DNA of 64,000 bases from Methylobacillus sp. (lineage in GTDB: Bacteria > Pseudomonadota > Gammaproteobacteria > Burkholderiales > Burkholderiaceae_C), in contig JABBAS010000031.1 in the NCBI GenBank assembly GCA_018607835.1, positions 11,241 through 75,240 on the forward strand, read 5' to 3'. The notes beneath the pieces are model-generated. The model had not been told where the DNA came from and did not search any database. It saw only the letters and a program-made list of their open reading frames with translations. The translations under genes and the position numbers were made by a program. Shown here piece after piece: positions 27,137-62,592 of this stretch (positions are counted from its first letter, which is position 1; the number at the start of each line of letters is the position of its first letter).

Positions 27137-27205
27137 ATGTTGACCTCGGGTGAGCCTCTCTCCATAGGTCGCGTGGTTCGTCCGTCCGAAACCTATCCTC
27201 TGGAG
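27130..27205 (+). promoter_or_regulatory. Proposed expression platform of the SAH riboswitch
   Basis: CTCACCC (27130-27136), part of the aptamer pseudoknot, can instead pair with GGGTGAG (27148-27154). Further on, CTCCATAGGT (27160-27169) can pair with ACCTAT (27191-27196) and, across a five-base bulge, with the ribosome site GGAG (27202-27205). This gives a translational off-state that ligand binding could undo. It is a pairing proposal only. Confidence 0.5.
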
Positions 27206-27211
27206 TATGAA

Positions 27212-28648
27212 ATGAACGCCGTTCTAAAACCCCAAACTGCCCCCAACCACGTGATCGCTGACATCACATTGGCTGCATGGGGACGCAAAGAAATCAATAT
27301 TGCTGAAACCGAAATGCCTGGCTTGATGGCGATTCGGTCCGAGTTTGCCGCTAAGCAACCCCTTAAGGGCGCGCGCATTACGGGCAGCTTGCACATGACC
27401 ATACAAACCGCTGTTTTGGTAGAAACCTTGCAAGCCCTGGGCGCTGACGTGCGCTGGGCCTCATGCAATATCTACTCAACGCAAGACCAAGCCGCTGCGG
27501 CATTGGTCGAGCGTGGCACGCCCGTGTTCGCCTTTAAGGGCGAGACCTTGGCCGATTACTGGGACTTTACCCACCGCATCTTCGAGTTCGACGGTGCCAA
27601 AGGTACGCCAGAAGAAGGCCCCAACATGATTTTGGACGACGGTGGTGATGCCACTGGTTTGATGCATTTGGGTGTGCGCGCAGAAAAAGACATCAGCGTT
27701 CTAGACAAGCCAAGCAGCGAAGAGGAGACATTTTTGTTCGCCTCTATCAAGGCCAAGCTGGCCGTGGACCCCACGTTTTACAGCCGCCGCTTACCCAACA
27801 TCATGGGCGTGACGGAAGAGACCACCACCGGGGTCTTGCGTCTGAATGAGATGAGCGAAGCGGGTACCTTGATGCTGCGCGCGATCAACGTCAACGACTC
27901 AGTGACCAAGAGTAAATTTGACAACTTGTACGGTTGCCGTGAGTCCTTGGTCGACGGCATCAAGCGTGCAACCGATGTCATGATCGCCGGTAAGGTTGCG
28001 GTCGTTGCCGGCTACGGCGACGTCGGCAAGGGCAGCGCCCAAGCCTTGCGTGCCTTGTCTGCGCAGGTGTGGGTAACTGAGGTGGATCCGATCTGCGCCT
28101 TGCAGGCTGCGATGGAAGGCTACCGTGTCGTAACCATGGACTATGCTGTGGATAAGGCAGACATTTTTGTGACGGCAACAGGTAACAAAGACATCATCAC
28201 CCGTGCCCACATGGACAAGATGAAGGATCAAGCCATTGTTTGCAACATCGGACACTTTGACAACGAGATCGATGTTGCCGGTTTAGAGAGTTGCACTTGG
28301 GAAGAAATCAAGCCACAAGTCGACCATGTGGTGTTCCCCGATGGCAAGCGCATCATTCTGTTGGCAAAAGGCCGTTTGGTGAACTTGGGCTGTGGAACGG
28401 GTCACCCCAGCTTTGTCATGAGTAGCTCCTTTGCTAACCAAGTCATTGCGCAAGTAGAGTTGTTCACGCGTCCCGATTTCTACGAAGTGGGTAAGGTCTA
28501 CGTGTTGCCCAAGCACTTGGACGAGAAAGTGGCGCGTCTGCACCTGATGAAGGTGGGCGCACAGCTTACCGAGTTGACAGCAGACCAGGCACAGTACATC
28601 GGTGTCAGCCAAGCGGGTCCGTACAAAGCGGACGCCTACCGCTACTAA
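27212..28648 (+). CDS. ahcY: Adenosylhomocysteinase
   Basis: Hydrolyses S-adenosylhomocysteine to homocysteine and adenosine, removing the inhibitor of SAM-dependent methylases. I start at the ATG 27212 ([24 protein letters not shown]), 478 residues, with GGAG 7 bases upstream; the open frame begins 75 bases earlier, inside the riboswitch expression region. Key features: substrate region [26 protein letters not shown]-binding [21 protein letters not shown]-terminal KADAYRY, whose Lys-Tyr reach into the NAD site of the partner subunit. tlyA-like and metF genes follow in the same direction. Confidence 0.96.
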
Positions 28649-60362: not shown

Positions 60363-61547
60363 TTACATGCCGGCAGCGGCCTTCAGGATGGCAGCCTTAT
60401 CGGTGCGCTCCCATGTGAAGTCGGGCTCATCACGACCGAAGTGGCCATAGGCGGCCGTACGTTCGTAGATGGGGCGCAGCAAATCAAGCATCTGAATAAT
60501 GCCTTTAGGACGCAAGTCAAAGTGTTCACGCACCAGCAACGCCAATTGGTCATCGGAAACGACGCCTGTGCCCTCTGTATATACCGTGATGTTCATTGGT
60601 TCTGCCACGCCAATGGCGTAAGCAACTTGAATTTGGCACTGTCGAGCCAGACCGGCGGCGACGATGTTTTTTGCGACATAACGTGCGGCATAAGCGGCAG
60701 AGCGGTCCACCTTGGTTGGATCTTTGCCGCTGAAAGCGCCACCGCCGTGTGGGCAAGCGCCGCCGTAGGTGTCCACAATGATCTTGCGACCAGTTAAACC
60801 GCAGTCGCCTTGTGGGCCACCGACAACGAAACGGCCGGTTGGGTTGATCAGGTACTTGGTGTCTGCTGTGATCCACTCGGAGGGTAGGACAGGCTTGATC
60901 AGCTCTTCAATAATGGCTTCGTTAAACGAGGCCTTCATTTTGGTCGGTGACTCGCTTTGATCAGGGCTGTGCTGGGTTGACAGCACCACGGTGTCAATGC
61001 TGTGTGGCTTGCCGTCCACATAGCGCATGGTGACTTGACTCTTAGCGTCTGGGCGCAAGAAAGGCATGCGGCCGTCTTTACGTAATTGCGCTTGGCGCTC
61101 GACGAGACGGTGCGCGTAGTAGATGGGCGCAGGCATCAGGTCGGGGGTTTCGTCACAGGCGTAGCCAAACATCAGGCCTTGGTCGCCAGCGCCAATGTTT
61201 AAGTAGTCGTCACTGGCGCGGTCAACGCCTTGGGCAATGTCATTGCTCTGTTTGTCATAACAGACCATCACAGCACAGCCTTTGTAGTCGATGCCGTAGT
61301 CCGTGTTGTCGTAGCCAATGCGTTGAAGGGTGTCACGCGCCACTTGGATGTAGTCAACGTGTGCGTTGGCGGAAATTTCGCCTGCCAGAACGACCAAGCC
61401 GGTGTTGGTCAGAGTTTCAGCAGCGACACGTGCAACGGGGTCCTGCGCCAAGATGGCGTCGAGGATGGCATCGGAAATCTGGTCTGCTACTTTGTCGGGA
61501 TGACCTTCCGAAACAGATTCGGAAGTAAATAGAAAGTCATTGGCCAT
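60363..61547 (-). CDS. metK: S-adenosylmethionine synthetase
   Basis: Makes SAM from methionine and ATP, 394 residues. Signatures: [21 protein letters not shown] (catalytic His and Mg-binding region), [15 protein letters not shown] (methionine/ATP loop, about 116-130), and [22 protein letters not shown] (P-loop-like). AGGAG lies 7 bases before the ATG and can be masked by an upstream GCTCC. It is preceded by a leader carrying a SAM-II-like aptamer and its own sigma-70 promoter. Confidence 0.97.
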
Positions 61548-61604
61548 GAAAAGCTCCTAGGTAAGGTTGGTTAATCAGGCGTTGCCTGAGCCTCGGGAGC
61601 ACAT

Positions 61605-61664
61605 GGCGAACGCTTTAGCAACATTTATAAATCGCCTTGCAAGTTGTTCAGTAACTCGGCGAGC
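61605..61664 (-). promoter_or_regulatory. Candidate SAM-II-type riboswitch upstream of metK
   Basis: Read on the minus strand, the leader contains TTGCAAGGCG (61643-61634) and ATAAATGTTGCTAAA (61628-61614), nearly identical to the conserved core of SAM-II aptamers. P1 is TCGCC (61662-61658) with GGCGA (61636-61632). The loop of P1 offers GAAC (61649-61646) to GTTC (61611-61608) and CAAC (61646-61643) to GTTG (61622-61619), the expected H-type pseudoknot. Downstream GCTCC (61600-61596) can pair with the metK ribosome site GGAGC (61557-61553), over a small TCAGGC/GCCTGA hairpin (61575-61589), as a translational switch. A SAM-V-like assignment is an alternative. Confidence 0.72.
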
Positions 61665-61673
61665 CCCTATTAT
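61644..61673 (+). promoter_or_regulatory. Possible divergent promoter for the acyltransferase gene
   Basis: TTGTTC (61644-61649) and TATTAT (61668-61673), 18 bases apart, read on the plus strand across the metK promoter. If real, the two promoters overlap. Confidence 0.35.
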
Positions 61674-61698
61674 AGATAGGAGTGGGCGCTATGATCAA
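61669..61698 (-). promoter_or_regulatory. metK promoter
   Basis: On the minus strand TTGATC (61698-61693) and TATAAT (61674-61669) are spaced by 18 bases. Transcription would start near 61662-61664, right at the 5' side of the aptamer stem. Confidence 0.7.
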
Positions 61699-61749
61699 GG
61701 TCGCCGTCCTTACACTTTGCAACCTGTCCTTTTGTCCCGCGTGGCTGTT

Positions 61750-62592
61750 ATGTTGATACGCTTTTTTAACCTGTTGTCGCGCTGCCCTCTGTGGCTGTTG
61801 CAGTTGGGCGGCAGTGCGTTGGGTGTGGGGATCTGGTTGGGTTCTCCACGCCATCGGCGGCAGCTACGAGAAAACGCAGGGCGCGTGGGCCTGAGTCGTT
61901 ATCAGCGGTGGTTAGCCATCTTACATACCGGACGCATGGTGGCCGAGTTGCCGCGTTTGTGGCTGGGTGAACCCATGCCTTTTGAGTGGTCTGGTGTGGA
62001 CTTGCTGCATGCCGCTGTGCAGCGGCAAGACCGGATTTGTTTGTTGACGCCTCATATGGGGTGCTTTGAGATGTGCGCGCAAGGCTATGCGCAGACCTTC
62101 GCTCATCCTGCGCTGGGCGATGCAGCCAAGCCCATTACCGTTTTATACCGGCCCTCGCGCCAGGCGACGCTGCAACAACTCGTACATCGTGGCCGTGAGC
62201 GCAGCGGCATGTTTGCGGCGCCGGCGACACTCAGCGGTGTGAAGCAGCTCATCAAGGCCCTAAAGGGTGCGCAGACCGTGGGCCTGTTACCCGACCAAGT
62301 GCCCCCGGATGGCATGGGTGTGTGGGCCCCATTTCTTGGCCAGCCCGCTTACACAATGACCTTGGCAGGTCGCTTGGCGAGAGAGGCCGATACGGTGTTA
62401 ATGATGTGGGGAGAGCGCCTGCCTTGGGGGCGTGGCTTTCGCTTGCACGTGGCCAAGCCCGTGGGTGTGTTACCAGCGGACCCAGAGGGTGCTGCCGCCA
62501 TGGTGAATGCCTGGGTCGAGCAGACTATCCAAGCCTGCCCCGAGCAATATCTGTGGGGTTATGACCGCTTTAAAGGGCCACGCCGCCCTTAG
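61750..62592 (+). CDS. Lauroyl/myristoyl (LpxL-type) lipid A acyltransferase
   Basis: Inner-membrane acyltransferase of 280 residues from the ATG at 61750 (MLIRFFNLLSRCPLWLLQLGG). The longer frame back to 61567 would cross the metK promoter and aptamer and has no supporting motif. A hydrophobic N-terminal helix anchors it. The catalytic HX4E box is His102/Glu107 in TPHMGCFE; later YRPSRQ and LLPDQVPPDGMGVWAPFLG are typical of the LpxL/LpxM/HtrB group. Whether it adds lauroyl or myristoyl, or acts on ornithine lipids, cannot be told. Confidence 0.87.
   Translation: MLIRFFNLLSRCPLWLLQLGGSALGVGIWLGSPRHRRQLRENAGRVGLSRYQRWLAILHTGRMVAELPRLWLGEPMPFEWSGVDLLHAAVQRQDRICLLTPHMGCFEMCAQGYAQTFAHPALGDAAKPITVLYRPSRQATLQQLVHRGRERSGMFAAPATLSGVKQLIKALKGAQTVGLLPDQVPPDGMGVWAPFLGQPAYTMTLAGRLAREADTVLMMWGERLPWGRGFRLHVAKPVGVLPADPEGAAAMVNAWVEQTIQACPEQYLWGYDRFKGPRRP

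Follow-up and report, generated by a model that had tools for sequence, protein, structure and literature searches.

A SAM-II-like pseudoknot before metK in Methylobacillus and related betaproteobacteria, predicted to act as a translational riboswitch

The SAM-II riboswitch (RF00521) is common in the Alpha-, Beta- and Gammaproteobacteria (PMC2704228), and SAM-II terminators are described for both the alpha and the beta lineages, together with a predicted R-Y pair and a homopurine G-G/A-A pair (PMC2258182). An element from Bordetella bronchiseptica appears in a figure legend of PMC1273637, the main text of which does not mention metK, and 44 examples of tandem SAM-II elements have been counted (PMC9481103). 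Another study (Leyn 2014, PMC4239095) places SAM_alpha only in Rhizobiales and Rhodobacterales, describes a pseudoknot before the beta-proteobacterial metXZ genes, and leaves beta-proteobacterial metY, metK and metNIQ without a known regulator, attempts to find one having failed. In a search of paper listings and of passages from mainly open papers, we found no report of SAM-II before metK in betaproteobacteria. SAM-V has a core that superimposes on that of SAM-II; in SAM-V, U47 pairs with the adenine of SAM and bonds in turn with U8, the sulfonium lies opposite the triple U20:A48.U9, and A50 holds the amino-acid end of the ligand (PMC6061858).

Here we analyse the leader of metK within a window of 64,000 nucleotides (the whole stretch of Methylobacillus DNA under study). 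The original prediction had put a SAM-II-like pseudoknot there, and every sequence that it named, for the promoter, P1, the pseudoknot, the anti-Shine–Dalgarno (anti-SD) and the Shine–Dalgarno (SD), is present on the minus strand where it said. The promoter, to which function is assigned by consensus only, consists of a -35 box TTGATC (61698-61693, minus strand, as are all features of the leader) and, after an 18-nt spacer, a -10 box TATAAT (61674-61669) that ends 6 nt before P1; of the 62 leader clusters, 41 have the motif TANAAT no more than 26 nt ahead of P1, where shuffled sequences give 2.7 on average. The aptamer spans 61662-61605. It is made up of the P1 5' strand TCGCC (61662-61658), a third strand GAGTTA (61657-61652) with G at position 10 (the equivalent of U10 in SAM-II) and A at position 13, the P2a 5' strand GAAC (61649-61646), the P2b 5' strand CTTGC (61643-61639), the P1 3' strand GGCGA (61636-61632), an L3 loop of 12 nt (61631-61620; up to 76 nt in relatives), the core and P2b 3' strand GCTAAAG (61619-61613) and the P2a 3' strand GTTC (61611-61608). 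P1 and P2a are supported by covariation, and both P2b strands, with the core, are invariant in the alignment described below. Further on lie the anti-SD GCTCC (61600-61596), the SD GGAGC (61557-61553) and metK itself (60363-61547, ATG at 61547), which codes for an S-adenosylmethionine synthetase of 394 aa with the three S-AdoMet synthetase domains, N, M and C, in Pfam. Divergent from metK is an ORF (61567-62592, plus strand) for a lipid A acyltransferase-like protein (Pfam PF03279), the listed start of which overlaps the metK leader on the opposite strand; its real start is probably further in.

Compensatory changes in the metK leaders of relatives had been proposed as a check of the fold, and they are seen both in P1 and in the pseudoknot helix P2a. 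The alignment that carries them, A2, holds 31 of the 62 leader clusters, those with an L3 of more than 20 nt or a spacer of more than 4 nt being left out. Standard pairs fill 94.8% of its cells (n=31), and sliding the partners by 1-3 columns lowers pairing to 34-45%. Both partners have changed in 38 cells (12.8 on average after shuffling), and the covariation score is 0.252, against 0.124 for shuffled alignments, neither value being reached in 500 shuffles. Two measures of the count type are weaker: 6 pairs show two-sided change (4.6 shuffled; 26/500 as high) and 16 further pair types are found (13.1 shuffled; 5/500). The outer pair of P1 is UA in 19 rows, CG in 9, AU in 2 and GC in 1 (n=31), and the third pair of P2a is GC in 18, AU in 9, GU in 2, UG in 1 and other in 1 (n=31); the fourth pair of P2a is unpaired in 14 of 31, so that P2a is 3-4 bp long. 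Six P2 pairs are uninformative because they never vary. The extra pairs predicted in PMC2258182 can be placed as well, by our own mapping onto these positions: the R-Y pair beside the core is GC in 17 rows, AU in 6, GU in 5 and other in 3 (n=31), and the homopurine pair is A-A in 167, G-G in 21 and other in 8 of 196 elements, or A-A in 73, G-G in 16 and other in 4 of the 93 loci not selected by pattern. Since leader clusters were selected for at least 4/5 pairs in P1 and the 196 elements for 5/5, the unselected test of P1 is a scan of public genomes with a DNA pattern free of any P1 constraint; it returned at least 120 stretches, and among the 120 listed P1 has 5/5 pairs in 107 and 4/5 in 13. 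As judged from these alignments, the P1 stem and an H-type pseudoknot of P2a and P2b are present, P1 and P2a with the support of covariation, and a SAM-II-like pseudoknot before metK, with pairings and core that covary or persist in relatives, is upheld.

Standard models hardly register this element. At gathering scores Rfam finds nothing at metK in the window, where its sole match is an SAH riboswitch elsewhere, and nothing at metK at E<=10 in the 701 nt around the leader. When a region of 146 nt is searched, SAM_alpha (RF00521) aligns over model positions 1-79 of 79 with 9.5 bits (E 6.6), far from its gathering cut-off of 36 bits, in line with the divergence from catalogued SAM-II that had been suggested. 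Neither SAM-V (RF01826) nor SAM/SAH (RF01727) is listed up to E 10 in the same region, and neither identity is supported. Only one of 15 metK loci scanned at Rfam gathering passes, L151, with 41.7 bits; on the strand opposite its SAM_alpha element (L151:316-434, minus) the Burkholderia sRNA family Bp2_287 scores 37.1 bits (cut-off 70). Across 60 genomes of the order, SAM_alpha has 33 matches at E<=0.001, spread over 26 genomes, and scores above its cut-off in 8 of the 60 under strict filters; by eye, none of the 33 matches lies at a metK place. Our model R2, described below, finds the metK element in 18 of these same 60 genomes (the G041 leader not included). Two low-scoring matches in the window's own genome (C18:111316-111367 and C50:13980-14050) have no methionine gene that we recognised nearby. 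Thus, of the two supports that the original prediction looked to, a significant covariance-model score is absent, and conservation and covariation in relatives are strong. The metK element would act like SAM-II and very probably shares its origin; because it scores below the Rfam threshold and lacks U10, we class it as a SAM-II variant rather than as a member of RF00521.

The residues expected to touch the ligand are kept, with one exception. The SAM-II equivalents of the SAM-V contacts, which we take to be U44/U10, U21:A45.U11 and A47 in the numbering of 2QWY, can be followed through the alignment: the counterparts of U11, U12, U20, U21, U44, A45, A46 and A47 are present in the window and unchanged throughout the 31 rows of A2, and position 10, the partner of the adenine-binding U, is G in the window, the U10 of SAM-II being absent. 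The roles of the third-strand residues are mapped from PMC6061858 and from the 2QWY numbering. Among the 44 metK leaders found by model R1 the third strand is GAGTTA in 35, GTGTTA in 2, GATTTA in 5, GATTTG in 1 and GGTTTA in 1; with such mixed strands, the GAGTTA and GATTTG types grade into each other. The aptamer is predicted to bind SAM. That the change from U10 to G shifts the ligand, so that mainly another adenosyl compound is sensed, is improbable: G10 is found in 37 of the 44 R1-found leaders (R1 itself being built from GAGTTA leaders) and the SAM-V equivalent of U10 does bond to the adenine-binding U (PMC6061858), but the remaining SAM-contact residues are kept, among them both U that read the charge of the sulfonium, U10 is retained in 7 of the 44, and metK is a natural target for SAM. 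By our inference G10 could still donate a hydrogen bond to U44. A more far-reaching reading, which we hold tentatively and at less than even odds, is that GAGUUA elements make up a separate branch of the SAM-II superfamily, absent from the catalogues, with a pocket retuned by the near-fixed U-to-G change next to the adenine-binding U and with a specialisation for translational control of metK. A retuned pocket, if true, would mean a different affinity, different kinetics or even a different choice of ligand.

The element is widespread in relatives. As DNA, the 163-nt leader has matches at E<=0.1 in 34 genomes out of 60, the own genome among them; a few of the weaker matches lie elsewhere or cover other parts of the query. 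Model R1 was built from 18 GAGTTA leaders belonging to the same family as the window; L023, which has a long L3, was excluded from it and from alignment A1. At E<=0.01 R1 matches 193 of the 300 genomes searched in the order, at metK and elsewhere, and at E<=0.001 it matches 21 of 299 drawn from the whole phylum, of which 18 belong to the order; the own genome is counted in both figures. To set these against a denominator, metK was located in 148 of 150 genomes and the leaders of 147 metK loci in 146 genomes were read, those left out being G041 (contig start), the second copies in G141 and G157, and G127. R1 recognises 44 of the 147 leaders at E<=1; the broader R2, built partly from these same 147 loci, recognises 46 at E<0.001, spanning 14 of 50 family labels, and has no match at that threshold in the other 101. 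In the public-genome scan, metK lies within 540 nt in 108 of the 120 pattern matches listed. The 12 others among those listed comprise three of Pelagibacter type (two Pelagibacteraceae, and L317 by sequence), six of Neisseriales type before a small ORF (L313 among these), two before other genes in Rhodocyclales-type genomes and one at a contig end. By name, the 80 titled matches among those listed include 2 Pelagibacteraceae and 2 without a class, the rest being betaproteobacterial. Going by these searches, the element is kept before metK in many betaproteobacteria and missed by the standard Rfam model. Chance resemblance to SAM-II, for which the sub-threshold Rfam score might speak, is already refuted: the element is conserved and covaries across 14 family labels, and 108 of the 120 listed pattern matches stand before metK. 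L3 is often replaced by insertions of 26-76 nt (L023, L062, L064, L071, L079 and others), some of which likely form a hairpin reminiscent of the long loops of SAM-II and of P3 in SAM-V.

How would such an aptamer act on metK? The translational arrangement put forward originally, with the anti-SD GCTCC opposite the SD GGAGC, gains weight from the finding that the anti-SD tracks its own SD across lineages. The anti-SD region and its own 11-nt SD window pair at -8.2 kcal/mol on average; permuting the partners gives -6.4 (0/5000 as good), and 49 of the 62 clusters do better in cis than their trans mean. The P2a 3' strand likewise pairs better with the middle of its own leader (-10.6 in cis against -9.5 permuted; 0/5000; 44 of 62 clusters). 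Wider regions give -14.4 against -11.1 (0/2000); the regions overlap in 9 of 62 clusters, and the cis advantage held when the test was repeated without region overlap. (One of 148 leaders was left out, by length, from the wide-region pairing and the cluster structure counts.) Of the 62 clusters, 10 have an uninterrupted helix of at least 8 bp to the SD, a length reached by 3.5% of trans pairs; the longest are of 11 bp in L090 and of 9 bp in L294, L297, L087 and L244. GCCATG (61602-61607) is complementary to CATGGC at the start of metK (61543-61548), and the predicted OFF helix would thus also cover the start codon. Pairing of the P2a strand with the region around the start codon is likewise stronger in cis than under permutation (2/2000 as good); we rejected pairing of this strand with the metK codons as the main switch, since the own-family signal may follow the conserved MANDF codons, and list it as a competing interaction.

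Folding calculations bring in a second structure. In transcripts that end at 61579-61560, and so stop before the SD exists, a predicted antiaptamer hairpin GCGUUcGCC...GGCAACGC, with its 5' arm GCGTTcGCC at 61613-61605 and its 3' arm at 61586-61579, forms with a probability of 0.85-0.95 when the pseudoknot is absent; the cis/trans pairing comparison points to the same two arms. Its 5' arm overlaps P2a, and hairpin and P2a are therefore mutually exclusive; holding the pseudoknot strands prevents, by construction, the outer part of the hairpin. In transcripts long enough to include the SD, the anti-SD:SD helix dominates with or without the pseudoknot held, and in the full leader at equilibrium the pairing of the SD is ~1.0 in either case. 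When the 62 leader clusters are folded and their P2 strand is left free, the SD is paired (>0.5) in 60. A simple thermodynamic ON/OFF switch is therefore not supported by folding, the SD being covered in either state, and the switch would have to be kinetic. The same equilibrium closure, reached without any ligand, speaks for a structured leader that has no ligand and is bound by a protein or an sRNA or acts autonomously, for example as a temperature sensor; we consider this very improbable, because the SAM-II core, the architecture and the reported covariations are hard to explain otherwise.

The switch that we favour, a SAM-II-type pseudoknot in which binding of SAM frees the anti-SD to cover the ribosome-binding site of metK and so lowers SAM synthase, is in our judgement probable. 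As long as SAM is absent and the SD still untranscribed, the predicted hairpin would trap the 3' strand of P2a together with part of the anti-SD and so leave the ribosome time to bind; with SAM bound, the P2a strand would be held in the pseudoknot, the hairpin would be absent, and the anti-SD would capture the SD once it is made. The choice between ON and OFF would thus be made during transcription, in a predicted co-transcriptional step. Comparison of the leaders establishes that P1 and P2a covary, that the SAM-contacting core is kept and that the anti-SD region matches its own SD better than those of other leaders; the modelling adds that the metK leader is likely a translational OFF switch. 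Counted against are the 9.5 bits in Rfam, G10, the closure of the SD in both equilibrium states, a P1 pairing probability of 0.27 when folded without the pseudoknot, the competing start-codon pairing and the 101 of 147 leaders without an R2 match. A SAM-II aptamer with a mainly transcriptional output, by intrinsic or Rho termination, in which the anti-SD is secondary, would fit the alpha- and beta-Proteobacterial SAM-II elements, mostly tied to terminators (PMC2258182), as well as the canonical GATTTG elements, 19 of 21 of which have a terminator-like site within 110 nt (a raw count, with no shuffled comparison). It would also fit the 16 of 62 leader clusters with a terminator-like hairpin and T run (shuffled mean 3.1); L065, L151 and L161 have clear terminators by eye. 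In the metK leader of the window, however, the scan detects no terminator-like hairpin with a T run, 115 of 157 GAGTTA-type elements have no terminator-like site, and the anti-SD tracks the SD across lineages; we regard a mainly transcriptional output as unlikely here. In some relatives an intrinsic terminator likely replaces or supplements the anti-SD output.

The metK element does not stand alone in this genome. A canonical-looking GATTTG SAM-II lies before metX (G000:C47:26496-26573, minus strand; loci L001/L337); with 26.5 bits it is the genome's best SAM_alpha match, below the cut-off of 36, and a terminator follows it (metX and terminator recognised by eye). With this second element, and with SAM-II already published for beta-proteobacteria, the claim of a less expected lineage proves overstated. 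The SAH riboswitch of the window (RF01057; 27064-27139, plus strand; 49.6 bits) directly precedes ahcY (27137-28648), downstream of which are a TlyA-like methyltransferase gene and then metF, all three genes being named by eye. The methionine cycle here would carry three riboswitches, of SAM-II type at metX and metK and for SAH at ahcY-metF. Tandem loci are seen in relatives (L038, L045, L046, L047, L048, L051, L236, L264, L276, L284 and L313), where a canonical GATTTG SAM-II is followed by a T-rich terminator-like hairpin and, ~100-200 nt on, by a second element, mostly GAGTTA. In Neisseriales-type loci (L236, L276, L313, L047 and L051, also L257, L261 and L284) a GAGTTA element stands before a short ORF (about 95-104 aa, beginning MYDC) that has no Pfam match in the 3 tested; the MYDC protein is likely under SAM control. 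In the reading of a distinct branch, GAGUUA elements share genomes with the canonical, terminator-type SAM-II of metX and in some relatives stand in tandem behind it. Canonical and G10 aptamers in one genome make natural pairs for testing the effect of a second-shell pocket residue on affinity or specificity. A SAM-II-type switch at metK would also fill the published gap of a metK regulator in beta-proteobacteria (Leyn 2014, PMC4239095), and it suggests that SAM riboswitches commonly exert feedback on SAM synthase in the group and that the Rfam model largely misses them.

Several described systems resemble the metK element in part. Like SAM-V (RF01826), which has the pseudoknot fold of SAM-II and touches SAM in the same way, it would be translational, but in SAM-V the SD lies mostly inside its own P2a (PMC6061858), whereas the SD of metK is ~50 nt further on. 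The metXZ element (Leyn 2014, PMC4239095) shares the pseudoknot and the alternative structure; it differs in being terminator-based and in standing before metX/metZ rather than metK, and its probable counterparts here are L337, a canonical-type SAM-II ahead of metX, and L025, a SAM-II-like element ahead of metZ. The tandem SAM-II/SAM-V arrangement of Pelagibacter comes close in sequence: L208, L271 and L317 share the core GAGTTA...AACTTGC...GCTAAAGCGT, and an Rfam SAM_V match follows the GAGTTA element in L208 and L271, the two that were scanned. PMC11508383 tested a Pelagibacter RNA, and the GAGUUA likeness drawn here is that of L208, L271 and L317 alone. These Pelagibacter-type loci, a GAGTTA element with a terminator, differ from metK both in that terminator and in their targets, which by eye are metY-like (L208, L317) and bhmT-like (L271). 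With SAM-II itself (RF00521; the metA motif) the metK element has in common a single P1 hairpin, an H-type P2, the UUGC x GCUAAA core, a third strand, the additional R-Y and homopurine pairs, a promoter directly upstream and, downstream, a gene of methionine/SAM metabolism; it departs from SAM-II in having GAGUUA in place of GAUUUG, a P2a of only 3-4 bp, an Rfam score below the cut-off, metK as its target and an SD that lies outside the aptamer, where it would be reached by a separate anti-SD.
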